The notes beneath the pieces were generated by a model. That model searched no databases and had not been told where the DNA came from. It saw only the letters and a program-made list of their open reading frames with translations. Positions 24,802 through 64,000 of a stretch of DNA of 64,000 nucleotides are shown here, one piece after another. Source of the DNA: Tomocerus qinae (taxonomy: Eukaryota > Arthropoda > Collembola > Entomobryomorpha > Tomoceridae); NCBI GenBank assembly GCA_020055645.1, contig CM034546.1, positions 87,110,001 through 87,174,000 on the forward strand, given 5' to 3'. Positions within the stretch are counted from its first letter, which is position 1. Every line of letters starts with the position of its first letter. A program made the translations under genes and the position numbers.

Positions 24802-24868
24802 AATTAGACTTCCTTGTATGTGCATTTTGCATATTGACAGGTGTCTATTGTCTATTTCTGGAATTAAC

Positions 24869-27754: not shown

Positions 27755-27759
27755 TCTGT

Positions 27760-29301: not shown

Positions 29302-29309
29302 GTTTTTGT

Positions 29310-30500: not shown

Positions 30501-30529
30501 TTCCTATCAATAAGATTAATGTAAAGTGT

Positions 30530-32341: not shown

Positions 32342-32604
32342 TATGGTTTTACTGGATGAAAATGTTAAGTATTAAGGGGGTTCGAATTTAAAATGATAAA
32401 AGGCGGTTAAAAATTAAAATTTTAAAAAGAGGGTAAAATGAAAATCTTAACAGGAAGTTAAAAATTAAATTTTAAGAGCAGGTAATGGCAAAAACAATAG
32501 CATACAGAATTAAATAACGAAAGATGGTACAATTTTTACTTTCTATATTAATATGATCCTAATCATCATCATCATCAGTTTATATAAGCTGTTTGCATTT
32601 AATG

Positions 32605-32690
32605 TGGGTGTGTGTGTTATTGTTCGAGAGCCTGAATTTGGCTGAGTAGCGTTGAAATGTTACAAACAAATACAGGCTTTCAACACACAC
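32605..32690 (+). repeat. hairpin module, second copy in right Helitron
   Basis: Same module as at 30530, here beginning GTGTGTGTTATTGTTCGAGA and ending CAGGCTTTCAACACACAC. It matches 20723-20806 of the left element in inverse orientation almost base for base. Confidence 0.85.
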
Positions 32691-33182
32691 ACGAAATTAA
32701 ATAATATTCTCGGCTTGATAAACTTAATAGGAGAAGGGAGAGGAGTGAGTTCATAAGTCGGAAACCTCTAGCTCAAATTCCTAAATGGGGAAGCAAGATT
32801 GGGAGACTTCCAACTCAAATTGCTAAACGGTGTAGCATGAGTGGGAGACTTAAAACTCAATTTCAAAACTTAGTAAACACGGGTATAGATTCGAATCTTT
32901 ACTTTAAGGGTTTATTATTTATCAATAAAGACAAAAATGTAAAACATTTGGGTAGATTAAGTGTGGTCTGCTACATCTAGACTCGGTCATTGGTTGGTAC
33001 TTTTCCACAAAATAAGTTGTATTTGGCTTATAAGAGTATATAATAAAGTTTTGTCAAATACTTTCAGTGTAAAATTAGTAGTCTTAAGGTTAAAATTTTT
33101 TAAATCAAATTTTAAACTTTAAAACTAATTATTTCAATTTTTTTAATTTTCTTTTTCGAATATTCAAGCGCCCTGTTACTGC

Positions 33183-33211
33183 CCCGTCCGTAGGACGGGT
33201 AACCTTACTAG
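33183..33211 (+). promoter_or_regulatory. Helitron 3' terminal hairpin and CTAG end
   Basis: A 7-bp stem, CCCGTCC/GGACGGG, with loop GTA is followed after eight bases by CTAG. In Helitrons this hairpin is held to mark the end of rolling-circle transfer. The mirror copy lies at 20140-20168. Confidence 0.75.
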
Positions 33212-35035
33212 TTGTATTATATTATAAGTTCACAACAGCCTCATCCCGACCCCTGTATCACACTTTGAAAGATAAAAAGCTACTTCTAGTGCCCACGTCT
33301 CTTCAAAATTAACTGCTTTCAAAAGCGTCAAAGTGTGTTATTAAATTAAAATATGTTTACACAATCACACAGGGATTCCCAAATTCTAAAAATGTCAACA
33401 TAGAATTTATTGATTAGGATTCAACATGCTTTAATAGGGATTCAACATGCTCTAATAGGGATTCAACATGCTCTAATAGGGATTCAACATGCTCTAATAG
33501 GGATTCAACATGCTCTAATAGGGATTCAACATGCCCTAATAGGGATTCAACATGCTCTAATAGGGATTCAACATGCTCTAATAGGGATTCAACATGCTCT
33601 AATAGGGATTCAACATGCTTTAATAGGGATTCAACATGCTCTAATAGGGATTCAACATGCTCTAATAGGGATACAACATGCTCTAATAGGGATTCAACAT
33701 GCTCTAAAAGGGATTCAACATGCTCTAATAGAGATTTAACATGCTCTAATAGGGATTCAACATGCTCTAATAGGGATTCAACATGCTCTAATAGAGATTT
33801 AACATGCTCTAATAGGGATTCAACATGCTCTAATAGGGATTCAACATGCTCTAATAAGGATTCAACATGCTCTAATAGGGATTCAACATGCTCTAATAGG
33901 GATTCAACATGCTCTAATAGGGATTCAACATGCTCTAATAATGACTAAACATGCTCTAATAGGGATTCAACATGCTCTAATAGACATTCAACATGCTCTA
34001 ATAGAGATTCAACATGCTCTAATAGGGATTCAACATGCTCCAATAGGGATTTAACATGCTCTAATAGGGATTCAACATGCTCTAATACGGATTCAGCATG
34101 CTCTAATAGGGATTCAACATGCTTTAATAGGGATTCAACATGCTCTAATAGGGATTCAACATGCTCTAATAGGGATTCAACATGCTCTAATAGGGATTCA
34201 ACATGCTCTAATAGGGATTCAACATGCTCTAATAGGGATTCAACATGCTTTAATAGTGATTCAACATGCTCTAATAGGGATTCAACATCCTCTAATAGGG
34301 ATTCAACATGCTTTAATAGGGATTCAACATGCTCTAATAGGGATTCAACATGCTTTAATAGATATTCAACATGCTTTAATAGGGATTCAACATGCTTTAA
34401 TAGGGATTCAACATGCTTTAATAAGGATTCAACATTCTTTAATAGGGATTCAACATGCTCTAATAGGGATTCAACATGCTCTAATAGGGATTCAACATGC
34501 TCTAATAGGGATTCAACATGCTCTAATAGGGATTCAACATGCTCTAATAGGGATTCAACATGCTCTAATAGGGATTCAACATGCTCTAATAGGGATTTAA
34601 CATGCTCTAATAGGGATTCAACATTCTTCAATAGGGATTCAACATGCTTTAATAGGGATTCAACATTCTTTAATAGGGATTCAACATGCTCTAATAGGGA
34701 TTCAACATGCTTTAATAAGGATTCAACATTCTTTAATAGGGATTCAACATGCTTTAATAGGGATTCAACATGCTTTAATAGGGATTCAACATGCTCTAAT
34801 AAGGATTCAAGATGCTCTAATAGGGATTCAACATGCTCTAATAGGGATTCAACATGCTCTAATAGGGATTCAACATGCTCTAATAGGGATTCAACATGCT
34901 CTAATAGGGATTCAACATGCTCTAATAGGGATTCAACATGCTCTAATATGGATTTAACATGCTCTAATAGGGATTCAAGATGCTCCAATAGGGATTTAAC
35001 ATGCTTTAATAGGGATTCAACATGCTCTAATAGGG

Positions 35036-36760
35036 ATTCAACATGCTCTAATAGGGATTCAACATGCTTTAATAGAGATTCAACATGCTTTAATAGGGAT
35101 TCAACATGCTTTAATAGGGATTCAACATGCTTTAATAGGGATTCAGCATGCTCTAATAGGGATTCAACATACTCTAATAGGGATTCAACATGCTCTAATA
35201 GAGATTCAACATACTCTAATAGGGATTCAACATGCTCTAATAGGGATTCAACCTGCTTTAATAGATATTCAACATGCTTTAATAGGGATTCAACATGCTT
35301 TAATAGGGATTCAACATGCTTTAATAGGGATTCAACATGCTTTAATAGGGATTCAACATGCTTTAATAGGGATTCAACATGCTCTAATAGGGATTCAACA
35401 TGCTTTAATAGGGATTCAACATGCTCTAATAGGGATTCAACATGCTCTAATAGGGATTCAACATGCTCTAATAGGGATTCATTATCCTCTAATAGGGATT
35501 CAACATGCTCTAATAGGGATTCAACATGCTCTAATAGGGATTCAACATCCTCTAATAGGGATTCAACATGCTCTAATAGGGATTCAACATGCTTTAATAG
35601 GGATTCAAAATGCTCTAATAGGGATTCAACATGCTTTAATAGATATTCAACATGCTTTAATAAGGATTCAACATTCTTTAAGAGGGATTCAATATGCTCT
35701 AATAGGGATTCAACATGCTCTAATAGGGATTCAACATGCTCTAATAGGGATTCAACATGCTCTAATAGGGATTCAACATGCTCTAATAGGGATTCAACAT
35801 GCTCTAATAGGGATTCAACATCCTTTAATAGGGATTCAACATGCTCTAATAGGGATTCAACATGCTTTAATAGGGATTCAACATTCTTCAATAGGGATTC
35901 AACATGCTTTAATAGAGATTCAACATGCTTTAATAGGGATTCAACATGCTTTAATAGGGATTCAACATGCTTTAATAGGGATTCAGCATGCTCTAATAGG
36001 GATTCAACATACTCTAATAGGGATTCAACATGCTCTAATAGAGATTCAACATACTCTAATAGGGATTCAACATGCTCTAATAGGGATTCAACATGCTCTA
36101 ATAGGGATTCAACCTGCTTTAATAGATATTCAACATGCTTTAATAGGGATTCAACATGCTTTAATAGGGATTCAACATGCTTTAATAGGGATTCAACATG
36201 CTTTAATAGGGATTCAACATGCTTTAATAGGGATTCAACATGCTCTAATAGGGATTCAACATGCTTTAATAGGGATTCAACATGCTCTAATAGGGATTCA
36301 ACATGCTCTAATAGGGATTCAGCATGCTCTAATAGGGATTCAACATCCTCTAATAGGGATTCAACATGCTCTAATAGGGATTCAACATGCTTTAATAGGG
36401 ATTCAACATGCTTTAATAGGGATTCAACATGCTCTAATAGGGATTCAACATGCTTTAATAGGGATTCAACATGCTCTAATAGGGATTCAACATGCTTTAA
36501 TAGATATTCAACATGCTTTAATAAGGATTCAACATTCTTTAAGAGGGATTCAACATGCTCTAATAGGGATTCAACATGCTCTAATAGGGATTCAACATGC
36601 TCTAATAGGGATTCAACATGCTCTAATAGGGATTCAACATGCTCTAATAGGGATTCAACATGCTCTAATAGGGATTCAACATCCTTTAATAGGGATTCAA
36701 CATGCTCTAATAGGGATTCAACATGCTCTAATAGGGATTCAACATGCTCTAATAGGGATT
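35036..36760 (+). repeat. 861-bp (41-monomer) tandem duplication in the satellite
   Basis: Rare monomers recur at an offset of exactly 861: AGATATTC at 35263 and 36124, again at 35641 and 36502, and the private variant TTAAGAGGG near 35678 and 36539. The order of CTCTAAT and CTTTAAT monomers between them is also largely preserved. Confidence 0.85.
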
Positions 36761-38354
36761 CAACATGCTCTAATAGTGACTAAACATGCTTTAATAGGGA
36801 TTCAACATGCCCTAATAGGGATTCAACATGCTCTAATAGGGATACAACATGCTCTAATAGGGATTCAACATGCTCTAATAGGGATTCAACATGCTCTAAT
36901 AGGGATTCAACATGCTCTAATAGAGATTTAACATGCTCTAATAGGGATTCAACATGCTCTAATAGGGATTCAACATGCGCTAATAGGGATTAAACATGCT
37001 TTAATAGGGATTCAACATTCTTTAATAGGGATTCAACATGCTTTAATAGGGATTCAACATGCTTTAATAGGGATTCAACATGCTTTAATAGGGATTCAAC
37101 ATGCTCTAATAGGGATTCAACATGCTCTAATAGGGATTCAAGATGCTCTAATAGGGATTCAACATGCTCTAATAGGGATTCAACATGCTCTAATAGGGAT
37201 TCAAGATGCTCTAATAGGGATTCAACATACTCTAATAGGGATTCAAGATGCTCTAATAGAGATTCAACATGCTCTAATAGGGATTCAACATGCTCTAATA
37301 GGGATTTAACATGCTCTAATAGGGATTCAACATTCTTCAATAGGGATTCAACATGCTTTAATAGGGATTCAACATGCTTTAATAAGGATTCAACATTCTT
37401 TAATAGGGATTCAACATGCTCTAATAGGGATTCAACATGCTCTAATAGGGACTAAACATGCTCTAATAGGGATTCAACATGCTTTAATAGGGATTCAACA
37501 TGCTCTAATAGGGATTCAACATGCTCTAATAGGGATTCTACATCCTCTAATAGGGATTCAACATGCTCTAATAGGGATTCAACATGCTCTAATAGGGATT
37601 CAACATGCTCTAATAGGGATTCAACATGCTCTAATAGGGATTCAACATGCTCTAATAGGGATTCAACATGCTCTAATAGGGATTCAACATGCTCTAATAG
37701 GGATTCAACATGCTCTAATAGGGATTCAACATGCTCTAATAGGGATTCAACATGCTCTAATAGGGATTCAACATGCTCTAATAGGGATTCAACATGCTCT
37801 AATAGTGACTAAACATGCTCTAATAGGGATTCAACATGCTCTAATAGGGATTCAACATGCTCTAATAGAGATTTAACATGCTCTAATAGGGATTCAACAT
37901 GCTCTAATAGGGATTCAACATGCTCTAATAGGGATTCAACATGCTCTAATAGGGATTCAACATGCTCTAATAGGGATTCAACATGCTCCAATAGTGACTA
38001 AACATGCTCTAATAGAGATTCAACATGCTCTAATAGAGATTCAACATGCTCTAATAGGGATTCAACATGCTCCAATAGGGATTTAACATGCTCTAATAGG
38101 GATTCAACATGCTCTAATAGGGATTCAGCATGCTCTAATAGGGATTCAACATGCTTTAATAGGGATTCAACATGCTCTAATAGGGATTCAACATGCTCTA
38201 ATAGGGATTCAACATGCTCTAATAGGGATTCAACATGCTTTAATAGGGATTCAACATGCTTTAATAGGGATTCAACATGCTTTAATAAGGATTCAACATT
38301 CTTTAATAGGGATTCAACATGCTCTAATAGGGATTCAACATGCTCTAATAGGGA

Positions 38355-41330
38355 CTAAACATGCTCTAATAGGGATTCAACATGCTCTAATAGAGATTCA
38401 ACATGCTCTAATAGAGATTCAACATGCTCTAATAGGGATTCAACATGCTTTAATAGGGATTCAACATGCTTTAATAGAGATTCAACATGCTCTAATAGGG
38501 ATTCGACATGCTTTAATAGGGATTCAACATGCTCTAATAGGGATTCAACATGCTCTAATAGGGATTCAACATGCTTTAATAGGGATTCAACATGCTTTAA
38601 TAGGGATTCAACATGCTCTAATAGGGATTCAACATGCTCTAATAGGGATTCAACATGCTCTAATAGGGATTCAACATGCTCTAATAGGGATTCAACATGC
38701 TCTAATAGAGATTCAACATGCTCTAATAGGGATTCAACATGCTCTAATAGGGATTTAACATGCTCTAATAGGGATTCAACATGCTCTAATAGGGATTCAA
38801 CATGCTCTAATAGGGATTCAACATGCTCTAATAGGGATTCAACATGCTCTAATAGGGATTCAACATGCTCTAATAGGGATTCAACATGCTCTAATAGGGA
38901 TTCAACATGCTCTAATAGGGATTCAACATGCTCTAATAGGGATTCAACATGCTTTAATAGGGATTTAACATTCTTTAATAGGGATTCAACATGCTTTAAT
39001 AGGGATTCAACATGCTTTAATAGATATTCAACATGCTTCAATAGGGATTCAACATGCTTTAATAGGGATTCAACATGCTTTAATAAAGATTCAACATTCT
39101 TTAATAGGGATTCAACATGCTTTAATAGGGATTCAACATGCTCTAATAGGGATTCAACATGCTCTAATAGGGATTCAACATACTCTAATAGGGATTCAAC
39201 ATGCTCTAATAGAGATTCAACATGCTCTAATAGGGATTCAACATGCTCTAATAGGGATTTAACATGCTCTAATAGGGATTCAACATTCTTCAATAGGGAT
39301 TCAACATGCTTTAATAGGGATTCAACCTTCTTTAATAGGGATTCAACATGCTCTAATAGGGATTCAACATGCTTTAATAAGGATTCAACATTCTTTAATA
39401 GGGATTCAACATGCTTTAATAGGGATTCAACATGCTCTAATAGGGATTCAACATTCTTCAATAGGGATTCAACATGCTTTAATAGGGATTCAACATGCTT
39501 TAATAAGGATTCAACATTTTTTAATAGGGATTCAACATGCTCTAATAGGGATTCAACATGCTTTAATGGGGATTCAACAAGCTCCAATAGGGATTCAACA
39601 TGCTCTAATAGGGATTCAACATGCTCTAATAGGGATTCAGCATGCCCTAATAGGGATTCAACATGCTTTAATAGGGATTCAACATGCTCTAATAGGGATT
39701 CAACATGCTCTAATAGGGATTCAACATGCTCTAATAGGGATTCAACATGCTTTAATAGGGATTCAACATGCTTTAATAGGGATTCAACATGCTTTAATAA
39801 GGATTCAACATTCTTTAATAGGGATTCAACATGCTCTAATAGGGATTCAACATGCTCTAATAGGGACTAAACATGCTCTAATAGGGATTCAACATGCTCT
39901 AATAGAGATTCAACATCCTCTAATAGAGATTCAACATGCTCTAATAGGGATTCAACATGCTTTAATAGGGATTCAACATGCTTTAATAGAGATTCAACAT
40001 GCTCTAATAGGGATTCGACATGCTTTAATAGGGATTCAACATGCTTTAATAGAGATTCAACATGCTCTGATAGGGATTCAACATCCTTTAATAGGGATTC
40101 AACATGCTTTAATAGGGATTCAACATGCTCCAATAGGGATTCAACATGCTCCAATAGGGATTCAACATGCTCTAATAGGGATTCAACATACCCTAATAGG
40201 GATTCAACATGCTCTAATAGAGATTCAACATACTCTAATAGGGATTCAACATGCTCTAATAGGGATTTAACATGCTCTTATAGGGATTCAACACACTCTA
40301 ATAGGGATTCAACATGCTCTAATAGGGATTCAACATCCTCTAATAGGGATTCAACATGCTCTAATAGGGATTCAACATGCTCTAATAGGGATTCAACATG
40401 CTCTAATAGGGATTCAACATGCTCTAATAGGGATTCAACATGCTCTAATAGGGATTCAACATGCTTTAATAGGGATTTAACATTCTTTAATAGGGATTCA
40501 ACATGCTTTAATAGGGATTCAACATGCTTTAATAGATATTCAACATGCTTCAATAGGGATTCAACATGCTTTAATAGGGATTCAACATGCTTTAATAAAG
40601 ATTCAACATTCTTTAATAGGGATTCAACATGCTTTAATAGGGATTCAACATGCTCTAATAGGGATTCAACATGCTCTAATAGGGATTCAACATGCTCTAA
40701 TAGGGATTTAACATGCTCTAATAGGGATTCAACATTCTTCAATAGGGATTCAACATGCTTTAATAGGGATTCAACCTTCTTTAATAGGGATTCAACATGC
40801 TCTAATAGGGATTCAACATGCTTTAATAAGGATTCAACATTCTTTAATAGGGATTCAACATGCTTTAATAGGGATTCAACATGCTCTAATAGGGATTCAA
40901 CATTCTTCAATAGGGATTCAACATGCTTTAATAGGGATTCAACATGCTTTAATAAGGATTCAACATTCTTTAATAGGGATTCAACATGCTCTAATAGGGA
41001 TTCAACATGCTTTAATGGGGATTCAACAAGCTCCAATAGGGATTCAACATGCTCTAATAGGGATTCAAGATGCTCTAATAGGGATTCAACATGCTCTAAT
41101 AGGGATTCAACATGCTCTAATAGGGATTCAACATACTCTAATAGGGATTCAAGATGCTCTAATAGAGATTCAACATGCTCTAATAGGGATTCAAGATGCT
41201 CTAATAGGGATTCAACATACTCTAATAGGGATTCAAGATGCTCTAATAGAGATTCAACATGCTCTAATAGGGATTCAACATGCTCTAATAGGGATTTAAC
41301 ATGGTCTAATAGGGATTCAACATTCTTCAA
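38355..41330 (+). repeat. 1449-bp (69-monomer) duplication in the satellite
   Basis: The private combination of AATGGGGATTC, AACAAGCTCC and then AATAGG occurs at 39566 and 41015, 1449 bases apart. The preceding monomers match through ACCTTCTTT and AATAAAGATTC variants for most of the unit, with a few monomers gained or lost. Confidence 0.8.
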
Positions 41331-42007
41331 TAGGGATTCAACATGCTTTAATAGGGATTCAACATGCTTTAATAGGGATTCAACATGCTTTAATAGGGAT
41401 TCAGCATGCTCTAATAGGGATTCAACATACTCTAATAGGGATTCAACATGCTCTAATAGAGATTCAACATACTCTAATAGGGATTCAACATGCTTTAATA
41501 GGGATTCAACATGCTTTAATGGGGATTCAACATGCTCTAATAGGGATTCAACATGCTCTAATAGGGATTCAAGATGCTCTAATAGGGATTCAACATGCTC
41601 TAATAGGGATTCAACATGCTCTAATAGGGATTCAACATACTCTAATAGGGATTCAAGATGCTCTAATAGAGATTCAACATGCTCTAATAGGGATTCAACA
41701 TGCTCTAATAGGGATTCAACATGCTTTAATAGGGATTCAACATGCTCTAATAGGGATTCAACATGCTCTAATAGGGATTCAACATGCTCTAATAGGGATT
41801 CAACATGCTCTAATAGGGATTCAACATGCTTTAATAGGGATTCAACATGCTTTAATAAGGATTCAACATTCTTTAATAGGGATTCAACATGCTCTAATAG
41901 GGATTCAACATGCTCTAATAGGGACTAAACATGCTCTAATAGGGATTCAACATGCTCTAATAGAGATTCAACATGCTCTAATAGAGATTCAACATGCTCT
42001 AATAGGG

Positions 42008-45000
42008 AATCAACATGCTCCAATAGGAATTCAACATGCTCTAATAGAGATTCAACATGCTCTAATAGGGATTCAACATGCTCTAATAGGGATTCAACAT
42101 GCTCTAATAGGGATTCAACATGCTCTACTAGGGATTCAACATGCTCTAATAGGGATTCAACATGCTCTAATAGGGATTCAACATGCTCTAATAGGGATTT
42201 AACATGCTCTAATAGGGATTCAACATGCTCTAATAGGGTGTTAACATGCTCTAATAGGGATTCAACCAGCTCTAATGTGGATTCAACATGCTTTAATAGG
42301 GATTCAACATGCTCTAATAGGGATTCAACATGCTCTAATAGGGATTCAACATCCTCTAATAGGGATTCAACATGCTCTAATAGGGATTCAACATGCTCTA
42401 ATAGGGATTAAACATGCTTTAATAGGGATTCAACATGCTTTAATAGGGATTCAACATGCTCTAATAGGGATTCAGCATGCTTTAATAGGGATTCAACATG
42501 CTCTAATAGGGATTCAACATGCTTTAATAGGGATTCAACATGCTTTAATAGGGATTCAACATGCTTAAATAGATATTCAACATGCTTTAATAAGGATTCA
42601 ACATTCTTTAATAGGGATTCAACATGCTCTAATAGGGATTCAACATGCTTTAATAAGGATTCAACATTCTTTAATAGGGATTCAACATGCTTTAATAGGG
42701 ATTCAACATGCTTTAATAGGGATTCAACATGCTTTAATAGGGATTCAACATGCTTTAATAGGGATTCAACATGCTTTAATAGGGATTCAACATGCTCTAA
42801 TAGGGATTCAACATGCTTAAATAGATATTCAACATGCTTTAATAAGGATTCAACATTCTTTAATAGGGATTCAACATGCTCTAATAGGGATTCAACATGC
42901 TTTAATAAGGATTCAACATTCTTTAATAGGGATTCAACATGCTCTAATAGGGATTCAACATGCTTTAATAGGGATTCAACATGCTTTAATAGGGATTCAA
43001 CATGCTTTAATAGGGATTCAACATGCTTTAATAGGGATTCAACATGCTCTAATAGGGATTCAACATGCTTTAATAGGGATTCAACATGCTTTAATAGGGA
43101 TTCAACATGCTTTAATAGGGATTCAGCATGCTCTAATAGGGATTCAACATACTCTAATAGTGATTCAACATGCTCTAATAGAGATTCAACATGCTTAAAT
43201 AGATATTCAACATGCTTTAATAAGGATTCAACATTCTTTAATAGGGATTCAACATGCTCTAATAGGGATTCAACATGCTTTAATAAGGATTCAACATTCT
43301 TTAATAGGGATTCAACATGCTTTAATAGGGATTCAACATGCTTTAATAGGGATTCAACATGCTTTAATAGGGATTCAACATGCTTTAATAGGGATTCAAC
43401 ATGCTTTAATAGGGATTCAACATGCTCTAATAGGGATTCAACATGCTTTAATAGGGATTCAACATGCTTTAATAGGGATTCAACATGCTTTAATAGGGAT
43501 TCAGCATGCTCTAATAGGGATTCAACATACTCTAATAGTGATTCAACATGCTCTAATAGAGATTCAACATACTCTAATAGGGAGTCAACATGCTCTAATA
43601 GGGATTTAACATGCTCTAATAGGGATTCAACATCCTCTAATAGGGATTCAACATGCTCTAATAGGGATTCAACATCCTCTAATAGGGATTCAACATACTC
43701 TAATAGGGATTCAAGATGCTCTAATAGGGATTCAACATGCTCTAATAGGGACTAAACATGCTCTAATAGGGATTCAACATGCTCTAATAGAGATTCAACA
43801 TGCTCTAATAGAGATTCAACATGCTCTAATAGGGATTCAACATGCTCCAATAGGGATTTAACATGCTCTAATAGGGATTCAACATGCTCTAATAGGGATT
43901 CAGCATGCTCTAATAGGGATTCAACATGCTTTAATAGGGATTCAACATGCTCTAATAGGGATTCAACATACTCTAATAGGGATTTAACATGCTCTAATAG
44001 GGATTCAACATACTTTAATAGGGATTCAACATGCTCTTATAGGGTTTCAACATCCTCTAATAGAGATTCAACATGCTCTAATAGGGATTCAACATGCTTT
44101 AATAGGGATTCAACATGCTTTAATAGAGATTCAACATGCTCTAATAGGGATTCGACATGATTTAATAGGGATTCAACATGCTTTAATAGAGATTCAACAT
44201 GCTCTGATAGGGATTCAACATCCTTTAATAGGGATTCAACATGCTTTAATAGGGATTCAACATGCTTTAATAGGGATTCAACATGCTCCAATAGGGATTC
44301 AACATGCTCCAATAGGGATTCAACATGCTCTAATAGGGATTCAACATGCTCTAATAGGGATTTAACATGCTCTTATAGGGATTCAACACACTCTAATAGG
44401 GATTCAACATGCTCCAATAGGGATTCAACACGCTCTAATAGAGATTCAACATACTCTAATAGGGATTCAACATGCTCTAATAGGGATTTAACATGCTCTA
44501 ATAGGGATTCAACACATTTTAATAGGGATTCAACATGCTCTAATAGGGATTCAACATCCTCTAATAGGGATTCAACATGCTCTAATAGGGATTCAACATG
44601 CTCTAATAGGGATTCAACATGCTCTAATAGGGATTCAACATGCTCTAATAGGGATTCAACATGCTCTAATAGGGATTCAACATGCTCTAATAGGGATTCA
44701 ACTTGCTCTAATAGGGATTCAACATGCTCTAATAGGGATTCAACATGCTTTAATAGGGATTCAACATGCTTTAATAGGGATTCAACATGCTTTAATAGGG
44801 ATTCAACATGCTTTAATAGATATTCAACATGCTTCAATAGGGATTCAACATGCTTTAATAGGGATTCAACATGCTTTAATAGGGATTCAACATGCTCTAA
44901 TAGGGATTCAACATGCTTTAATAGGGATTCAACATGCTCTAATAGGGATTCAACATGCTCTAATAGGGATTCAACATGCTCTAATAGGGATTCAACATGC

Positions 45001-47480
45001 TCTAATAGAGATTCAACATGCTCTAATAGGGATTCAACATGCTCTAATAGGGATTTAACATGCTCTAATAGGGATTCAACATTCTTCAATAGGGATTCAA
45101 CCTGCTTTAATAGGGATTCAACCTTCTTTAATAGGGATTCAACATGCTTTAATAGATATTCAACATGCTTTAATAAAGATTCAACATTCTTTAATAGGGA
45201 TTCAACATGCTTTAATAGGGATTCAACATGCTTTAATAAAGATTCAACATTCTTTAATAGGGATTCAACATGCTTTAATAGGGATTCAACATGCTCTAAT
45301 AGGGATTCAACATGCTCTAATAGGGATTCAAGATGCTCTAATAGGGAATCAACATGCTCTAATAGGAATTCAACATGCTCTAATAGAGATTCAACATGCT
45401 CTAATAGGGATTCAACATGCTCTAATAGGGATTCAACATGCTCTAATAGGGATTCAACATGCTCTAATAGGGATTCAACATGCTCTAATAGGGATTCAAC
45501 ATGCTCTAATAGGGATTCAACATGCTCTAATAGGGATTCAACATGCTCTAATAGGGATTTAACATGCTCTAATAGGGATTCAACATGCTCTAATAGGGTG
45601 TTAACATGCTCTAATAGGGATTCAACCAGCTCTAATGTGGATTCAACATGCTTTAATAGGGATTCAACATGCTCTAATAGGGATTCAACATCCTCTAATA
45701 GGGATTCAACATGCTCTAATAGGGATTCAACATGCTCTAATAGGGATTCAACATGCTTTAATAGGGATTCAACATGCTTTAATAGGGATTCAACATGCTC
45801 TAATAGGGATTCAACATGCTTTAATAGGGATTCAACATGCTCTAATAGGGATTCAACATGCTTTAATAGGGATTCAACATGCTTTAATAGGGATTCAACA
45901 TGCTTTAATAGATATTCAACATGCTTTAATAAGGATTCAACATTCTTTAATAGGGATTCAACATGCTCTAATAGGGATTCAACATGCTTTAATAAGGATT
46001 CAACATTCTTTAATAGGGATTCAACATGCTTTAATAGGGATTCAACATGCTTTAATAGGGATTCAACATGCTTTAATAGGGATTCAACATGCTTTAATAG
46101 GGATTCAACATGCTTTAATAGGGATTCAACATGCTCTAATAGGGATTCAACATGCTTTAATAGGGATTCAACATGCTCTAATAGGGATTCAACATGCTTT
46201 AATAGGGATTCAGCATGCTCTAATAGGGATTCAACATACTCTAATAGGGATTCAACATGCTCTAATAGGGATTCAACATGCTTAAATAGATATTCAACAT
46301 GCTTTAATAAGGATTCAACATTCTTTAATAGGGATTCAACATGCTCTAATAGGGATTCAACATGCTTTAATAAGGATTCAACATGCTTTAATAGGGATTC
46401 AACATGCTTTAATAGGGATTCAACATGCTTTAATAGGGATTCAACATGCTTTAATAGGGATTCAACATGCTTTAATAGGGATTCAACATGCTTTAATAGG
46501 GATTCAACATGCTCTAATAGGGATTCAACATGCTTTAATAGGGATTCAACATGCTTTAATAGGGATTCAACATGCTTTAATAGGGATTCAACATGCTCTA
46601 ATAGGGATTCAACATACTCTAATAGGGATTCAACATGCTCTAATAGAGATTCAACATGCTCTAATAGGGATTCAACATGCTCTAATAGGGATTCAACATG
46701 CTCTAATAGGGATTCAACATCCTCTAATAGGGATTCAACATGCTCTAATAGGGATTCAACATCCTCTAATAGGGATTCAACATACTCTAATAGGGATTCA
46801 AGATGCTCTAATAGGGATTCAACATGCTCTAATAGGGACTAAACATGCTCTAATAGGGATTCAACATGCTCTAATAGAGATTCAACATGCTCTAATAGAG
46901 ATTCAACATGCTCTAATAGGGATTCAACATGCTCCAATAGGGATTTAACATGCTCTAATAGGGATTCAACATGCTCTAATAGGGATTCAGCATGCTCTAA
47001 TAGGGATTCAACATGCTTTAATAGGGATTCAACATGCTCTAATAGGGATTCAACATACTCTAATAGGGATTTAACATGCTCTAATAGGGATTCAACATAC
47101 TTTAATAGGGATTCAACATGCTCTTATAGGGTTTCAACATCCTCTAATAGAGATTCAACATGCTCTAATAGGGATTCAACATGCTTTAATAGGGATTCAA
47201 CATGCTTTAATAGAGATTCAACATGCTCTAATAGGGATTCGACATGCTTTAATAGGGATTCAACATGCTTTAATAGAGATTCAACATGCTCTGATAGGGA
47301 TTCAACATCCTTTAATAGGGATTCAACAAGCTTTAATAGGGATTCAACATGCTCCAATAGGGATTCAACATGCTCCAATAGGGATTCAACATGCTCTAAT
47401 AGAGATTCAACATACTCTAATAGGGATTCAACATGCTCTAATAGGGATTTAACATGCTCTTATAGGGATTCAACACACTC
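42008..47480 (+). repeat. long duplications with offsets of 3087 and 3360 bp in the satellite
   Basis: The variant GGGTGTTAAC with AACCAGCTC and AATGTGG occurs at 42237 and 45597 (offset 3360, 160 monomers). GGGACTAAAC at 43748 and 46835, GGGTTTCAACATCC at 44042 and 47129, and TCTTATAGGG at 44371 and 47458 are all 3087 (147 monomers) apart. TCTTATAGGG also occurs at 40276, 195 monomers before 44371. Confidence 0.85.
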
Positions 47481-50400: not shown

Positions 50401-53400
50401 AATAGATATTCAACATGCTTTAATAAGGATTCAACATTCTTTAATAGGGATTCAACATGCTCTAATAGGGATTCAACATGCTCTAATAGGGATTCAACAT
50501 GCTCTAATAGGGATTCAACATGCTCTAATAGGGATTCAACATGCTTCAATAGGGATTCAACATGCTCTAATAGGGATTCAACATGCTCTAATAGGGATTC
50601 AACATGCTCTAATAGGGATTCAACCTGCTTTAATAGATATTCAACATGCTCTAATAGGGATTCAAGATGCTCTAATAGGGATTCAACATACTCTAATAGG
50701 GATTCAACATGCTCTAATAGGGATTCAACATACTCTAATAGGGATTCAAGATGCTCTAATAGAGATTCAACATGCTCTAATAGGGATTCAACATGCTCTA
50801 ATAGGGATTCAACATGCTTTAATAGGGATTCAACATGCTTTAATAGATATTCAACATGCTTTAATAAGGATTCAACATTCTTTAATAGGGATTCAACATG
50901 CTCTAATAGGGATTCAACATGCTTTAATAGGGATTCAACATGCTCTAATAGGGATTCAACATCCTCTAATAGGGATTCAACATGCTCTAATAGGGATTCA
51001 ACATGCTTTAATAGGGATTCAACATGCTTTAATAGGGATTCAACATGCTTTAATAGGGATTCAACATGCTCTAATAGGGATTCAACATGCTTTAATAGGG
51101 ATTCAACATGCTTTAATAGGGATTCAACATGCTTTAATAGATATTCAACATGCTTTAATAAGGATTCAACATTCTTTAATAGGGATTCAACATGCTCTAA
51201 TAGGGATTCAACATGCTTTAATAGGGATTCAACATGCTCTAATAGGGATTCAACATGCTCTAATAGGGATTCAACATGCTTTAATAGGGATTCAACATGC
51301 TCTAATAGGGATTCAACATGCTCTAATAGGGATTCAACATGCTCTAATAGGGATTCAACATGCTCTAATAGGGATTCAACATGCTCTAATAGGGATTCAA
51401 CATGCTCTAATAGGGATTCAACATGCTCTAATAGGGATTCAACATGCTCTAATAGGGATTCAACATGCTTTAATAGGGATTCAACATGCTCTAATAGGGA
51501 TTCAACATGCTTTAATAGGGATTCAACATGCTCTAATAGGGATTCAACATGCTTTAATAGGGATTCAACATGCTTTAATAGGGATTCAACATGCTTTAAT
51601 AGGGATTCAACATGCTTTAATAGGGATTCAACATGCATTAATAGGGATTCAACATGCTCTAATAGGGATTCAACATGCTTAAATAGGGATGCAACATGCT
51701 CTAATAGGGATACAACATGCTCTAATAGGGATTCAACATGCTCTAATAGGGATTCAACATGCTTTAATAGGGATTCAACATGCTTTAATAGAGATTCAAC
51801 ATGCTCTGATAGGGATTCAGCATGCTTTAATAGGGATTCAGCATGCTCTAATAGGGATTCAACATGCTTTAATAGGGATTCAACATCCTCTAATAGGGAT
51901 TCAACATGCTCTAATAGGGATTCAACATGCTCTAATAGGGATTCAACATGCTCTAATAGGGATTCAACATGCTCTAATAGGGATTCAACATGCTTTAATA
52001 GGGATTCAACATGCTCTAATAGGGATTCAACATGCTTTAATAGGGATTCAACATGCTTTAATAGGGATTCAACATGCTCTAATAGGGATTCAACATGCTC
52101 TAATAGGGATTCAACATGCTTTAATAGGGATTCAACATGCTCTAATAGGGATTCAACATGCTCTAATAGGGATTCAACATGCTCTAATAGGGATTCAACA
52201 TGCTTTAATAGGGATTCAACATGCTCTAATAGGGATTCAACATGCTCTAATAGGGATTCAACATGCTTTAATAGGGATTCAACATGCTTTAATAGGGATT
52301 CAACATGCTTTAATAGGGATTCAACATGCTTTAATAGGTATTCAACATGCTTTAATAGGGATTCAACATGCTTTAATAGGGATTCAACATGCTTTAATAG
52401 GGATTCAACATGCTTTAATAGGGATTCAACATGCTTTAATAGGGATTCAACATGCTCTAATAGGGATTCAACATGCTCTAATAGGGATTCAACATGCTCT
52501 AATAGGGATTCAACATGCTCTAATAGGGATTCAACATGCTCTAATAGGGATTCAACATGCTTTAATAGGGATTCAACATGCTCTAATAGGGATTCAACAT
52601 GCTTTAATAGGGATTCAACATGCTTTAATAGGGATTCAACATGCTTTAATAGGGATTCAACATGCTTTAATAGGGATTCAACATGCTTTAATAGGGATTC
52701 AACATGCTTTAATAAGGATTCAACATTCTTTAATAGGGATTCAACATGCTCTAATAGGGATTCAACATGCTCTAATAGGGATTCAACATGCTCTAATAGG
52801 GATTCAACATGCTTTAATAGGGATTCAACATGCTTTAATAGGGATTCAACATGCTTTAATAGGGATTCAACATGCTTTAATAGGGATTCAACATGCTTTA
52901 ATAAGGATTCAACATTCTTTAATAGGGATTCAACATGCTTTAATAGGGATTCAACATGCTTTAATAGGGATTCAACATGCTCTAATAGGGATTCAACATG
53001 CTCTAATAGGGATTCAAGATGCTCTAATAGGGAATCAACATGCTCTAATAGGAATTCAACATGCTCTAATAGAGATTCAACATGCTCTAATAGGGATTCA
53101 ACATGCTCTAATAGGGATTCAACATGCTCTAATAGGGATTCAACATGCTCTAATAGGGATTCAACATGCTCTAATAGGGATTCAACATGCTCTAATAGGG
53201 ATTCAACATGCTCTAATAGGGATTCAACATGCTCTAATAGGGATTCAACATGCTCTAATAGGGTGTTAACATGCTCTAATAGGGATTCAACATGCTCTAA
53301 TAGGGATTCAATATCTTCTAATAGGGATTCAACATGCTCTAATAGGGATTCAACATGCTCTAATAGGGATTCAACATCCTCTAATAGGGATTCAACATGC

Positions 53401-56400
53401 TCTAATAGGGATTCAACATGCTTTAATAGGGATTCAACATGCTTTAATAGGGATTCAACATGCTTTAATAGGGATTCAACATGCTCTAATAGGGATTCAA
53501 CATGCTTTAATAGGGATTCAACATGCTCTAATAGGGATTCAACATGCTTTAATAGGGATTCAACATGCTTTAATAGGGATTCAACATGCTTTAATAGATA
53601 TTCAACATGCTTTAATAAGGATTCAACATGCTTTAATAGGGATTCAACATGCTCTAATAGGGATTCAACATGCTTTAATAGGGATTCAACATGCTTTAAT
53701 AGGGATTCAACATGCTTTAATAGGGATTCAACATGCTCTAATAGGGATTCAACATGCTTTAATAGGGATTCAACATGCTCTAATAGGGATTCAACATGCT
53801 TTAATAGGGATTCAACATGCTCTAATAGGGATTCAACATGCTTTAATAGGGATTCAACATGCTTTAATAGGGATTCAACATGCTCTAATAGGGATTCAAC
53901 ATGCTTTAATAGGGATTCAACATGCTTTAATAGGGATTCAACATGCTTTAATAGGGATTCAACATGCTTTAATAGGGATTCAACATGCTCTAATAGGGAT
54001 TCAACATGCTCTAATAGGGATTCAACATGCTCTAATAGGGATTCAACATGCTTTAATAGGGATTCAACATGCTTTAATAGGGATTCAACATGCTCTAATA
54101 GGGATTCAACATGCTCTAATAGGGATTCAACATGCTCTAATAGGGATTCAACATGCTCTAATAGGGATTCAACATGCTCTAATAGGGATTCAACATGCTT
54201 TAATAGGGATTCAACATGCTTTAATAGGGATTCAACATGCTTTAATAAGGATTCAACATGCTTTAATAGGGATTCAACATGCTTTAATAGGGATTCAACA
54301 TGCTTTAATAGGGATTCAACATGCTCTAATAGGGATCCAACATGCTCTAATAGGGATTCAACATGCTCTAATAGGGATTCAACATGCTCTAATAGGGATT
54401 CAACATGCTCTAATAGGGATTCAACATGCTCTAATAGGGATTCAACATGCTCTAATAGGGATTCAACATGCTCTAATAGGGATTCAACATGCTTTAATAG
54501 GGATTCAACATGCTCTAATAGGGATTCAACATCCTCTAATAGGGATTCAACATGCTTTAATAGGGATTCAACATGCTTTAATAGGGATTCAACATGCTTT
54601 AATAGGGATTCAACATGCTCTAATAGGGATTCAACATGCTTTAATAGGGATTCAACATGCTTTAATAGGGATTCAACATGCTTTAATAGGGATTCAACAT
54701 GCTTTAATAGGGATTCAACATGCTCTAATAGGGATTCAACATGCTCTAATAGGGATTCAACATGCTCTAATAGGGATTCAACATGCTTTAATAGGGATTC
54801 AACATGCTTTAATAGGGATTCAACATGCTTTAATAGGGATTCAACATGCTCTAATAGGGATTCAACATGCTTTAATAGGGATTCAACATGCTCTAATAGG
54901 GATTCAACATGCTTTAATAGGGATTCAACATGCTTTAATATGGATTCAACATGCTTTAATAGATATTCAACATGCTTTAATAAGGATTCAACATTCTTTA
55001 ATAGGGATTCAACATGCTCTAATAGGGATTCAACATGCTTTAATAGGGATTCAACATGCTCTAATAGGGATTCAACATGCTCTAATAGGGATTCAACATG
55101 CTCTATAAGGGATTCAACATCCTCTAATAGGGGTTCAACATGCTCTAATAGGGATTCAACATGCTTTAATAGGGATTCAACATGCTTTAATAGGGATTCA
55201 ACATGCTCTAATAGGGATTCAACATGCTTTAATAGGGATTCAACATGCTTTAATAGGGATTCAACATGCTTTAATAGGGATTCAACATGCTTTAATAGGG
55301 ATTCAACATGCTCTAATAGGGATTCAACATCCTCTAATAGGGATTCAACATGCTCTAATAGGGATTCAACATGCTTTAATAGGGATTCAACATGCTTTAA
55401 TAGGGATTCAACATGCTTTAATAGGGATTCAACATGCTCTAATAGGGATTCAACATGCTTTAATAGGGATTCAACATGCTTTAATAGGGATTCAACATGC
55501 TTTAATAGATATTCAACATGCTTTAATAAGGATTCAACATTCTTTAATAGGGATTCAACATGCTCTAATAGGGATTCAACATGCTTTAATAGGGATTCAA
55601 CATGCTCTAATAGGGATTCAACATCCTCTAATAGGGATTCAACATGCTCTAATAGGGATTCAACATGCTTTAATAGGGATTCAACATGCTTTAATAGGGA
55701 TTCAACATGCTTTAATAGGGTATCAACATGCTCTAATAGGGATTCAACATGCTTTAATAAGGATTCAACATTCTTTAATAGGGATTCAACATGCTTTAAT
55801 AGATATTCAACATGCTTTAATAAGGATTCAACATTCTTTAATAGGGATTCAACATGCTCTAATAGGGATTCAACATGCTTTAATAGGGATTCAACATGCT
55901 CTAATAGGGATTCAACATGCTCTAATAGGGATTAAACATGCTCTAATAGGGATTCAACATGTTCTAATAGGGATTCAACATGCTCTAATAGGGATTCAAC
56001 ATCTTCTAATAGGGATTCAACATGCTCTAATAGGGATTCAACATGCTTTAATAGGGATTCAACATGCTTTAATAGGGTATCAACATGCTCTAATAGGGAT
56101 TCAACATGCTTTAATAAGGATTCAACATTCTTTAATAGGGATTCAACATGCTTTAATAGGGATTCAACATGCTTTAATAGGGATTCAACATGCTCTAATA
56201 GGGATTCAACATGCTCTAATAGGGATTCAAGATGCTCTAATAGGGAATCAACATGCTCTAATAGGAATTCAACATGCTCTAATAGAGATTCAACATGCTC
56301 TAATAGGGATTCAACCTGCTCTAATAGGGATTCAACATGCTCTAATAGGGATTCAACATGCTCTAATAGGGATTCAACCTGCTCTAATAGGGATTCAACA

Positions 56401-56682
56401 TGCTCTAATAGGGATTCAACATGCTTTAATAGGGATTCAACATGCTCTAATAGGGATTCAACATGCTTTAATAGGGATTCAACATGCTTTAATAGATATT
56501 CAACATGCTTTAATAAGGATTCAACATTCTTTAATAGGGATTCAACATGCTCTAATAGGGATTCAACATGCTCTAATAGGGATTCAACATCCTTTAATAG
56601 GGATTCAACATGCTCTAATAGGGATTCAACATGCTTTAATAGGGATTCAACATGCTTTAATAGGGATTCAACATGCTTTAAT

Positions 56683-58741
56683 AGATATTCAACATGCTTT
56701 AATAAGGATTCAACATTCTTTAATAGGGATTCAACATGCTCTAATAGGGATTCAACATGCTTTAATAGGGATTCAACATGCTCTAATAGGGATTCAACAT
56801 CCTCTAATAGGGATTCAACATGCTCTAATAGGGATTCAACATGCTTTAATAGGGATTCAACATGCTTTAATAGGGATTCAACATGCTTTAATAGGGATTC
56901 AACATGCTTTAATAGGGATTCAACTTGCTCTAATAGGGATTCAACATCCTTTAATAGGGATTCAACATGCTCTAATAGGGATTCAACATGCTTTAATAGG
57001 GATTCAACATGCTTTAATAGGGATTCAACATGCTCTAATAGGGATTCAACATGCTTTAATAGGGATTCAACATGCTCTAATAGGGATTCAACATGCTTTA
57101 ATAGGGATTCAACATGCTTTAATAGGGATTCAACATGCTTTAATAGATATTCAACATGCTTTAATAAGGATTCAACATTCTTTAATAGGGATTCAACATG
57201 CTCTAATAGGGATTCAACATGCTCTAATAGGGATTCAACATGCTCTAATAGGGATTCAACATGCTCTAATAGGGATTCAACATGCTCTAATAGGGATTCA
57301 ACATGCTCTAATAGGGATTCAACATGCTCTAATAGGGATTCAACATGCTCTAATAGGGATTCAACCTGCTTTAATAGATATTCAACATGCTTTAATAGGG
57401 ATTCAACATGCTTTAATAGGGATTCAACATGCTTTAATAGGGATTCAACATGCTTTAATAGGGATTCAACATGCTTTAGTAGGGATTCAACATGCTCTAA
57501 TAGGGATTCAACATCCTCTAATAGGGATTCAACATGCTCTAATAGGGATTCAACATGCTTTAATAGGGATTCAACATGCTTTAATAGGGATTCAACATGC
57601 TCTAATAGGGATTCAACATGCTTTAATAGGGATTCAACATGCTCTAATAGGGATTCAACATGCTTTAATAGGGATTCAACATGCTTTAATAGGGATTCAA
57701 CATGCTTTAATAGATATTCAACATGCTTTAATAGGGATTCAACATGCTCTAATAGGGATTCAACATGCTCTAATAGGGATTCAACATGCTTTAATAGGGA
57801 TTCAACATGCTCTAATAGGGATTCAACATGCTTTAATAGGGATTCAACATGCTTTAATAGGGATTCAACATGCTCTAATAGGGATTCAACATGCTTTAAT
57901 AGGGATTCAACATGCTTTAATAGGGATTCAACATGCTTTAATAGGGATTCAACATGCTTTAATAGGGATTCAACATGCTCTAATAGGGATTCAACATCCT
58001 CTAATAGGGATTCAACATGCTCTAATAGGGATTCAACATGCTTTAATAGGGATTCAACATGCTTTAATAGGGATTCAACATGCTTTAATAGGGATTCAAC
58101 ATGCTCTAATAGGGATTCAACATGCTTTAATAGGGATTCAACATGCTTTAATAGGGATTCAACATGCTTTAATAGATATTCAACATGCTTTAATAAGGAT
58201 TCAACATTCTTTAATAGGGATTCAACATGCTCTAATAGGGATTCAACATGCTTTAATAGGGATTCAACATGCTCTAATAGGGATTCAACATCCTCTAATA
58301 GGGATTCAACATGCTCTAATAGGGATTCAACATGCTTTAATAGGGATTCAACATGCTTTAATAGGGATTCAACATGCTTTAATAGGGATTCAACATGCTT
58401 TAATAGATATTCAACATGCTTTAATAAGGATTCAACATTCTTTAATAGGGATTCAACATGCTCTAATAGGGATTCAACATGCTTTAATAGGGATTCAACA
58501 TGCTCTAATAGGGATTCAACATGCTCTAATAGGGATTAAACATGCTCTAATAGGGATTCAACATGCTCTAATAGGGATTCAACATGCTCTAATAGGGATT
58601 CAACATCTTCTAATAGGGATTCAACATGCTCTAATAGGGATTCAACATGCTTTAATAGGGATTCAACATGCTTTAATAGGGTATCAACATGCTCTAATAG
58701 GGATTCAACATGCTTTAATAAGGATTCAACATTCTTTAATA
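56683..58741 (+). repeat. 1029-bp (49-monomer) duplication in the satellite
   Basis: AGATATTC markers at 56683, 57145 and 57376 are followed by markers at 57712, 58174 and 58405, each exactly 1029 bases later. The marker at 56494 has no partner at 57523, so the left boundary of the duplicated block lies between 56494 and 56683. Confidence 0.85.
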
Positions 58742-61700
58742 GGGATTCAACATGCTTTAATAGGGATTCAACATGCTTTAATAGGGATTCAACATGCTCT
58801 AATAGGGATTCAACATGCTCTAATAGGGATTCAAGATGCTCTAATAGGGAATCAACATGCTCTAATAGGAATTCAACATGCTCTAATAGAGATTCAACAT
58901 GCTCTAATAGGGATTCAACCTGCTCTAATAGGGATTCAACATGCTCTAATAGGGATTCAACATGCTCTAATAGGGATTCAACCTGCTCTAATAGGGATTC
59001 AACATGCTCTAATAGGGATTCAACATGCTCTAATAGGGATTTAACATGCTCTATTAGGGATTCAACATGCTCTAATAGGGATTAAACATGCTCTAATAGG
59101 GATTCAACCAGCTCTAATAGGGATTCAACATGCTTTAATAGGGATTCAACATGCTTTAATAGGGATTCAACATGCTCTAATAGGGATTCAACATGCTTTA
59201 ATAGGGATTCAACATGCTTTAATAGGGATTCAACATGCTTTAATAGGGATTCAACATGCTTTAATAGGGATTCAACATGCTCTAATAGGGATTCAACATG
59301 CTTTAATAGGGATTCAACATGCTCTAATAGGGATTCAACATGCTTTAATAGGGATTCAACATGCTTTAATAGGGATTCAACATGCTTTAATAGGGATTCA
59401 ACATGCTCTAATAGGGATTCAACATGCTCTAATAGGGATTCAACATGCTTTAATAGGGATTCAACATGCTTTAATAGGGATTCAACATGCTTTAATAGAT
59501 ATTCAACATGCTTTAATAGGGATTCAACATGCTTTAATAGGGATTCAACATGCTCTAATAGGGATTCAACATGCTTTAATAGGGATTCAACATGCTCTAA
59601 TAGGGATTCAACATGCTCTAATAGGGATTCAACATGCTCTATAAGAGATTCAACATCCTCTAGTAGGGGTTCAACATGCTCTAATAGGGATTCAACATGC
59701 TTTAATAGGGATTCAACATGCTTTAATAGGGATTCAACATGCTCTAATAGGGATTCAACATGCTTTAATAGGGATTCAACATGCTTTAATAGGGATTCAA
59801 CATGCTTTAATAAGATTCAACATGCTTTAGTAGGGATTCAACATGCTCTAATAGGGATTCAACATCCTCTAATAGGGATTCAACATGCTCTAATAGGGAT
59901 TCAACATGCTTTAATAGGGATTCAACATGCTTTAATAGGGATTCAACATGCTCTAATAGGGATTCAACATGCTTTAATAGGGATTCAACATGCTCTAATA
60001 GGGATTCAACATGCTTTAATAGGGATTCAACATGCTTTAATAGGGATTCAACATGCTTTAATAGATATTCAACATGCTTTAATAAGGATTCAACATTCTT
60101 TAATAGGGATTCAACATGCTCTAATAGGGATTCAACATGCTTTAATAGGGATTCAACATGCTCTAATAGGGATTCAACATGCTCTAATAGGGATTCAACA
60201 TGCTCTAATAGGGATTCAACATGCTCTAATAGGGATTCAACATGCTCTAATAGGGATTCAACATGCTCTAATAGGGATTCAACATGCTTTAATAGGGATT
60301 CAACATGCTTTAATAGGGATTCAACATGCTCTAATAGGGATTCAACATGCTTTAATAGGGATTCAACATGCTTTAATAGGGATTCAACATGCTTTAATAG
60401 GGATTCAACATGCTTTAATAGGGATTCAACATGCTCTAATAGGGATTCAACATGCTCTAATAGGGATTCAACATGCTCTAATAGGGATTCAACATGCTTT
60501 AATAGGGATTCAACATGCTTTAATAGGGATTCAACATGCTTTAATAGGGATTCAACATGCTCTAATAGGGATTCAACATGCTTTAATAGGGATTCAACAT
60601 GCTTTAATAGGGATTCAACATGCTTTAATAGATATTCAACATGCTTTAATAAGGATTCAACATTCTTTAATAGGGATTCAACATGCTCTAATAGGGATTC
60701 AACATGCTTTAATAGGGATTCAACATGCTCTAATAGGGATTCAACATCCTCTAATAGGGATTCAACATGCTCTAATAGGGATTCAACATGCTTTAATAGG
60801 GATTCAACATGCTTTAATAGGGATTCAACATGCTTTAATAGGGATTCAACATGCTTTAATAGATATTCAACATGCTTTAATAAGGATTCAACATTCTTTA
60901 ATAGGGATTCAACATGCTCTAATAGGGATTCAACATGCTTTAATAGGGATTCAACATGCTCTAATAGGGATTCAACATGCTCTAATAGGGATTCAACATG
61001 CTCTAATAGGGATTCAACATGCTCTAATAGGGATTCAACATGCTCTAATAGGGATTCAACATCTTCTAATAGGGATTCAACATGCTCTAATAGGGATTCA
61101 ACATGCTTTAATAGGGATTCAACATGCTTTAATAGGGATTCAACATGCTCTAATAGGGATTCAACATGCTTTAATAAGGATTCAACATTCTTTAATAGGG
61201 ATTCAACATGCTTTAATAGGGATTCAACATGCTTTAATAGGGATTCAACATGCTCTAATAGGGATTCAACATGCTCTAATAGGGATTCAAGATGCTCTAA
61301 TAGGGATTCAACATGCTCTAATAGGAATTCAACATGCTCTAATAGAGATTCAACATGCTCTAATAGGGATTCAACCTGCTCTAATAGGGATTCAACATGC
61401 TCTAATAGGGATTCAACATGCTCTAATAGGGATTCAACATGCTCTAATAGGGATTCAACATGCTCTAATAGGGATTCAACATGCTCTAATAGGGATTCAA
61501 CATGCTCTATTAGGGATTCAACATGCTCTAATAGGGATTAAACATGCTCTAATAGGGATTCAACCAGCTCTAATAGGGATTCAACATGCTTTAATAGGGA
61601 TTCAACATGCTTTAATAGGGATTCAACATGCTTTAATAGGGATTCAACATGCTCTAATAGGGATTCAACATGCTTTAATAGGGATTCAACATGCTCTAAT

Positions 61701-64000
61701 AGGGATTCAACATGCTTTAATAGGGATTCAACATGCTCTAATAGGGATTCAACATGCTTTAATAGGGATTCAACATGCTCTAATAGGGATTCAACATGCT
61801 CTAATAGGGATTCAACATGCTCTAATAGGGATTCAACATGCTTTAATAGGGATTCAACATGCTTTAATAGGGATTCAACATGCTTTAATAGGGATTCAAC
61901 ATGCTCTAATAGGGATTCAACATGCTTTAATAGGGATTCAACATGCTTTAATAGGGATTCAACATGCTTTAATAGATATTCAACATGCTTTAATAGGGAT
62001 TCAACATTCTTTAATAGGGATTCAACATGCTCTAATAGGGATTCAACATGCTTTAATAGGGATTCAACATGCTCTAATAGGGATTCAACATGCTCTAATA
62101 GGGATTCAACATCCTCTAATAGGGATTCAACATGCTCTAATAGGGATTCAACATGCTTTAATAGGGATTCAACATGCTTTAATAGGGATTCAACATGCTT
62201 TAATAGGGATTCAACATGCTTTAATAGATATTCAACATGCTTTAATAAGGATTCAACATTCTTTAATAGGGATTCAACATGCTCTAATAGGGATTCAACA
62301 TGCTTTAATAGGGATTCAACATGCTCTAATAGGGATTCAACATGCTCTAATAGGGATTCAACATGCTCTAATAGGGATTCAACATGCTCTAATAGGGATT
62401 CAACATGCTCTAATAGGGATTCAACATCTTCTAATAGGGATTCAACATGCTCTAATAGGGATTCAACATGCTTTAATAGGGATTCAACATGCTTTAATAG
62501 GGTATCAACATGCTCTAATAGGGATTCAACATGCTTTAATAAGGATTCAACATTCTTTAATAGGGATTCAACATGCTTTAATAGGGATTCAACATGCTTT
62601 AATAGGGATTCAACATGCTCTAATAGGGATTCAACATGCTCTAATAGGGATTCAAGATGCTCTAATAGGGAATCAACATGCTCTAATAGGAATTCAACAT
62701 GCTCTAATAGAGATTCAACATGCTCTAATAGGGATTCAACCTGCTCTAATAGGGATTCAACATGCTCTAATAGGGATTCAACATGCTCTAATAGGGATTC
62801 AACATGCTCTAATAGGGATTCAACATGCTCTAATAGGGATTCAACATGCTCTAATAGGGATTCAACATGCTCTAATAGGGATTCAACATGCTCTAATAGG
62901 GATTCAACATGCTCTAATAGGGATTCAACATGCTCTAATAGGGATTCAACATGCTTTAATAGGGATTCAACATGCTTTAATAGGGATTCAACATGCTCTA
63001 ATAGGGATTCAACATGCTTTAATAGGGATTCAACATGCTTTAATAGGGATTCAACATGCTTTAATAGGGATTCAACATGCTTTAATAGGGATTCAACATG
63101 CTCTAATAGGGATTCAACATGCTTTAATAGGGATTCAACATGCTCTAATAGGGATTCAACATGCTTTAATAGGGATTCAACATGCTTTAATAGGGATTCA
63201 ACATGCTCTAATAGGGATTCAACATGCTTTAATAGGGATTCAACATGCTTTAATAGGGATTCAACATGCTCTAATAGGGATTCAACATGCTTTAATAAGG
63301 ATTCAACATTCTTTAATAGGGATTCAACATGCTTTAATAGGGATTCAACATGCTTTAATAGGGATTCAACATGCTTTAATAGGGATTCAACATGCTCTAA
63401 TAGGGATTCAACATGCTTTAATAGGGATTCAACATGCTCTAATAGGGATTCAACATGCTTTAATAGGGATTCAACATGCTTTAATAGGGATTCAACATGC
63501 TTTAATAGATATTCAACATGCTTTAATAGGGATTCAACATTCTTTAATAGGGATTCAACATGCTCTAATAGGGATTCAACATGCTTTAATAGGGATTCAA
63601 CATGCTCTAATAGGGATTCAACATGCTCTAATAGGGATTCAACATGCTCTAATAGGGATTCAACATGCTCTAATAGGGATTCAACATGCTCTAATAGGGA
63701 TTCAACATGCTCTAATAGGGATTCAACATGCTCTAATAGGGATTCAACATGCTTTAATAGGGATTCAACATGCTTTAATAGGGATTCAACATGCTCTAAT
63801 AGGGATTCAACATGCTTTAATAGGGATTCAACATGCTTTAATAGGGATTCAACATGCTTTAATAGGGATTCAACATGCTTTAATAGGGATTCAACATGCT
63901 CTAATAGGGATTCAACATGCTCTAATAGGGATTCAACATGCTCTAATAGGGATTCAACATGCTCTAATAGGGATTCAACATGCTCTAATAGAGATTCAAC

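Follow-up and report, generated by a model that had tools for sequence, protein, structure and literature searches.

Two described systems come closest to the locus considered here. In Drosophila virilis, the 220-bp internal repeats (TIR-220) of the foldback element Tetris are described as having multiplied within it to form satellite arrays with as many as 66 copies (Dias et al., 2014, PMC4079207). More broadly, a recent review presents it as a general route to satellites that short arrays inside Helitrons and MITEs expand (2025 review, PMC12628747). The birth of a satellite usually has to be reconstructed from arrays that are old and complete. In the genome of Tomocerus qinae, seed, growth, and homogenization become directly comparable, because a single unit with a 6-bp direct repeat, short and medium arrays, and a 55-kb array share related element backgrounds in one genome. 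We consider it highly probable that the longest of these arose in a foldback-like DNA transposon, as a minisatellite of the inner arm that expanded in place in one copy. The case would thus illustrate one kind of repetitive DNA growing out of another, a 21-letter word becoming roughly 2,600 repeats; since the general idea has already been published, it is a good example and no surprise.

As far as the published account of Tetris goes, the likenesses comprise long inverted arms with internal tandem repeats (here in relatives of the locus), the lack of a known transposase (none was found for the present family), and the in-place amplification of arm repeats to satellite-like arrays; the target-site duplication is 8–10 bp in Tetris, and here a candidate of 8 bp is seen in one copy, L023 (PMC4079207). 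The differences, within the same portion of that account, lie in the unit (21 bp here vs. ~220 bp), in the number of units per array (2,612 vs. up to 66), and in the arms, which here, unlike those of Tetris, each hold several different minisatellites (PMC4079207). By analogy, the present family may work as Tetris does, with a shorter unit and many more units, and we do not claim that it is Tetris. Two relatives here (L020 and L023) have long inverted arms, whereas to our knowledge Helitrons are without them. What would be shared with Helitrons and MITEs, as outlined in the relevant part of the review, is that a short internal array of a mobile element seeds a satellite (PMC12628747).

The window, that is, the whole 64,000-nucleotide stretch analyzed, corresponds to C1:87110001-87174000 on the 140.45-Mb contig C1 of a 334-Mb assembly of 115 contigs. 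Its right part is occupied by the array:

33417 to 64000, forward strand: 21-bp tandem array, (GGATTCAACATGCTCTAATAG)n, delimited by TRF and a unit-by-unit split, with 1,456 units in the window.

TRF finds a single array of period 21 here (1,456.4 copies, 94% matches, 0% indels, score 52,229). The unit-by-unit split sorts the 1,456 units into 96 kinds, all but one being 21 bp long (1,455, plus one of 20 bp at 59793); the consensus GGATTCAACATGCTCTAATAG is matched exactly by 555 of them, and in 437 others a C-to-T change at position 15 is the sole difference. Because every window unit lies within 5 edits of the consensus, there is no insertion or inversion within the window part of the array. 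The observation made in a sequence-only reading of this DNA, a single satellite running head to tail with nothing inserted or inverted, is thereby confirmed. That reading also described the array as open at the right edge, which is true of the window, because the window itself ends there, but not of the assembly, where the array runs on for 24,271 bp to C1:87198271 and then stops. The whole array measures 54,855 bp and holds 2,612 units of 144 kinds, with an indel in 4 of them, and neither array nor window contains any Ns. It is kilobase-scale, head-to-tail, and locally homogenized, as satellite DNA is, and the satellite size once ascribed to it stands; so does the prediction that most monomers carry the HinfI motif GANTC, which occurs 2,410 times per 2,612 units. 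The monomer, which the same reading did not recognize, is indeed absent from the open-access papers searched, judging from six strings taken from its core and six taken from neighboring repeats; monomer-based patterns had 0 matches in viral and genome contig collections, from which the window's own genome records were possibly left out. The accompanying interpretation is partly supported. A subtelomeric position, one of the options offered, is contradicted on the present assembly, since the locus, at 87 Mb, lies more than 50 Mb from either contig end.

Evidence for a transposon background comes from the junctions. To its left, the array adjoins a sequence that recurs elsewhere:

33231 to 33416, forward strand: left flank, part of the host element, with seven further copies, each adjoining 21-bp units.

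These seven copies are 73–80% identical to the window's, five of them spanning essentially the whole flank and two (L026 and L031) a part of it. Together with the window's own, they make eight loci on C1, C2, C4, and C5, and in all eight the switch from flank to 21-bp unit falls at the same point, the last few bases of the flank being a partial first monomer. The smallest array among the eight has 2 units, none has 1, and L029 and L031 have a variant of their own in the units closest to the junction. To its right, the array is followed by GGGATGGACAAAGGTACTAACAGACAACTGTAAATTATAATATAG, a 26-bp piece of which occurs at 74 genome places on 7 contigs (3 mismatches allowed; 1 place for the reversed-pattern control). 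A 46-bp junction of monomer and right flank, in the form seen in single-unit elements, has 16 places, all on C1 or C2 (control 0); the window array's own right junction is absent from these because its last unit has diverged too far. Inverted pairs of this junction, 0.8–3.3 kb apart at C1 21.49, C1 65.89, and C2 26.35 Mb, indicate that the monomer lies in both arms of the element. The sequence to the right of the array is diverged yet recognizable in L021, L029, and L030, partly alike in an array at 48 Mb of C1, and unlike the window's in L025, L026, and L028. The sequence-only suggestion of a species-specific satellite at a centromere, subtelomere, or heterochromatic block thus lacks support in that form. 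The monomer belongs to the interior of a transposon-like family with dispersed copies, some of which have it as one or a few units. In the window copy, homology ends at 33231 on the left and after ~75 bp on the right, where it is cut by a different repeat family (at least 31 matches, fragments included; all on C1 among the matches listed), and a search for the copy's own termini, both arms, and a target-site duplication found none of them. Since the window copy is an internal fragment, we class the array as family-derived and do not count the locus among intact elements.

The anatomy of the family was read from four relatives examined at 10 kb (L020–L023). Long inverted arms with tandem repeats, the foldback-like combination, are present in two of the four, with arms of 632 bp at 96% in L020 and 689 bp at 94% in L023; in L021 and L022, inverted arms were searched for at the same scale and none were seen. 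The arms of L020 and L023 contain GAGGTG-type minisatellites and also 40-bp minisatellites, the latter clear in L023, and the monomer sits on the inner side of these, facing the middle of the element. By inspection of the flanks, L023 has the termini GGTTAAAGTAAGACAGTGG and is the only copy with an 8-bp duplication, CTCATTTC, on both sides; the ends of L020 are unequal. Three arms, both of L020 and one of L022, carry a single monomer, ACAGGGATTCAACATGCTCTAATAGGGATGG, in which AGGGAT occurs twice at 21-bp spacing. This pairing in the single-unit form is the expected look of a slippage seed, and a contracted array would look identical. To the left of the monomer, the three single-unit arms do not resemble the window-type left flank of the eight loci, which implies that the modular element has at least two subfamilies and that the long arrays belong to a different one from the single-unit arms. 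A piece of the family also appears to lie far to the left of the array:

3334 to 3877, forward strand: 40-bp minisatellite of the host-family arm type, identified by TRF and similarity to L020.

Window positions 3118–3499 match L020 3858–4234 at 73%, and from this resemblance the segments at 3118–3499 and 3334–3877 are probably a relic of the host-element family. The middle of L020 (4518–5434) holds a 27-bp tandem repeat of 34 copies with 99% matches; the same repeat, inverted, lies to the right of the window array (L012 1089–1339, 9.3 copies), and there we take it, on its own, for another internal repeat of the host family.

Along the array, the units do not follow a random order. Among the window's 1,456 units, stretches of ten recur exactly in 22.1% of cases, whereas 20 shuffles gave 0.12% on average and 0.41% at most; the recurring blocks favor offsets of 147, 182, 124, 306, and 117 units. 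The commonest variant of the whole array is the C-to-T change at position 15 (759 of 2,612 units), and dimers of this variant (CTT–CTT) are nearly private to it, 350 of 354 genome-wide falling within the window array. We read the block recurrence and the near-private dimer as local duplication and homogenization. A simple fall of similarity with distance does not describe the array: mean identity is 94.4% at 1–2 units and 93.5–94.1% in all greater distance classes, and what is shared instead is blocks. Substitutions are broadly spread, the window part containing 49 of the 63 possible single changes, with none of the 21 positions left untouched, and the variants are ordered along the array in a variant map.

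Other arrays of the monomer provide the comparison. The exact monomer occurs 3,413 times genome-wide (2,508 forward and 905 reverse; control 0), of which 1,028 lie in the window array and 255 in the 48-Mb array (C1 48.138–48.156 Mb; 840 units, 111 with an indel). Run lengths at the other loci examined are 1, 1, 1, 2, 3, 10, 11, 15, 15, 53, at least 70 (this array runs past the end of the locus), and 833, the last being 840 units by the unit-by-unit split. Recurrence of the same array at many loci had been named as a sign of artefact; other examined arrays do exist, and neither their variants nor their flanks are the same. At 129.2 Mb, two array ends combine the window-type right flank with a CTAGTAG variant, a CTCGAAT variant is found at C1 33.92 Mb, and a TGCAACATGCACTTATAG-type subarray at 100.27 Mb. 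The two CTAGTAG array ends, L062 (C1:129250621-129250780) and L063 (C1:129204946-129205100), are nearly identical, 45.7 kb apart on the same strand, and are perhaps a segmental duplication. The array at C1 81.27 Mb has 17 perfect units among the matches listed. At C1:83554590-83556521, at least 92 identical 21-bp units stand in a row, more uniform than the window array and likely a very recent expansion. Considering the window array, the CTCGAAT, CTAGTAG, and TGCAACATGCACTTATAG-type variants, and the 83.55-Mb run, whose flanks are unseen, we lean slightly toward the idea that the family is a repeated satellite igniter, its 21-bp seed having expanded independently in many copies. Such independent expansions would give a single genome with stages from 1 to 2,612 units.

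How might a single word have become 2,612? Initially, AGGGAT at 21-bp spacing would have allowed polymerase slippage or microhomology repair to duplicate the unit. The number could then have risen to 2,612, and variants spread locally, as parts of the copy underwent unequal exchange and segmental duplication. Finally, later insertions and truncation may have damaged the host element, leaving a satellite-like block. Expansion within the transposon copy is supported by the shared junctions, the dispersed copies, the graded unit numbers, the local homogenization, and element sequence on both sides of the array, and the transposon-first direction rests on anatomy. The reverse order, in which an existing 21-bp satellite was captured or invaded by the transposon family and the single units are shrunken remnants, we consider improbable. 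Contraction would also leave single units with a 6-bp partial second unit, and the arrays at C1 81.27 and 83.55 Mb, which had no match in the left-flank or 26-bp right-flank genome searches, would fit a satellite that came first. However, the left junction is the same in 8 of 8 loci and the right junction in 16 places, so a satellite that came first would require capture, then transposition, and then array growth inside the element, an extra step that explains nothing more at the window locus.

In-place expansion in the transposon calls for no function, and we infer no cellular role for the array, which most likely arose neutrally through repeat turnover; perhaps it is tolerated in a low-recombination or heterochromatic region. 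We regard it as very unlikely that selection maintains the array as a centromeric or other structural satellite, such as a phased 21-bp repeat that binds protein every two helical turns. The scarcity of indels (only 4 of 2,612 units) and the four loci with 21-bp units at C1 81–88 Mb would accord with it, but the element copies are scattered on 7 contigs, and the 49 of 63 possible single substitutions present in the window part also speak against it. A phase constraint drawn from indel scarcity is contradicted by the 48-Mb array, where phase is lost (111 of 840 units), and the scarcity itself is equalled, at 0% indels, in an unrelated 26-bp array next door:

20139 to 33212, no strand assigned: 13-kb inverted-repeat element, unrelated to the host family, ~200 bp left of the 21-bp array.

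30856 to 32339, forward strand: 26-bp minisatellite in the right inverted arm of the 13-kb element (TRF: 57 copies, 93% matches, 0% indels).

An assembly artefact, in which the assembler over-extended a short minisatellite, is extremely unlikely in view of 144 unit types, the ordered variant map, the absence of Ns, and a longest exact internal repeat of 650 bp in the whole array. The last of these means that the array is not trivially inflated and that long reads should resolve it; from the absence of longer exact repeats in the assembled sequence, an overstated array length appears unlikely. A protein-coding heptapeptide repeat, which a unit length divisible by 3 and a frame open for up to 3,030 codons might suggest, has a negligible chance of being correct: three of the six consensus-monomer frames are stop-free by composition, which explains the long open frames, and the substitution pattern contradicts coding, the longest frame containing 14 of 14 possible non-synonymous transitions vs. 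5 of 7 synonymous, along with 2 of the 3 changes that could create a stop, with frequent frame shifts in the 48-Mb array, so that the array is without sign of coding.

The terminus of the 13-kb element, AAGGTTACCCGTCCTACGGACGGGGCAGTAACAGGGCGCTTG, lies at 20145, and the inverted copy ends at 33206; the 42-bp terminus is found at 38 genome places, 25 of them exact, which suggests recent activity. Its outermost 6 bp, ACTAGT, form a palindrome and are therefore ambiguous: they may belong to the terminus or represent a target duplication. The 26-bp minisatellite has an inverted counterpart at 21084–21290. Ten ORFs of the element were scanned without a Pfam match at the cut-off, the weak zf-H2C2 resemblance at 23302–23553 (15.2 bits) staying below the cut-off of 25. 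Across the window, none of the 20 stop-to-stop ORFs searched, out of 55, reached a curated Pfam cut-off, Rfam gave 0 matches in positions 1–36000, and a tRNA search gave 0. On the reverse strand, an ORF at 2233–2565 resembles DUF7869, although its 16.8 bits fall short of the cut-off of 26; beside it, the ORFs at 1746–2147 and 2574–2846, also on the reverse strand, have no Pfam match, and the three are perhaps a decayed transposon gene. Further tandem repeats at 22170–22715 (20 bp), 13899–14380 (132 bp), and 29303–30501 (270 bp) mark the region as repeat-rich.
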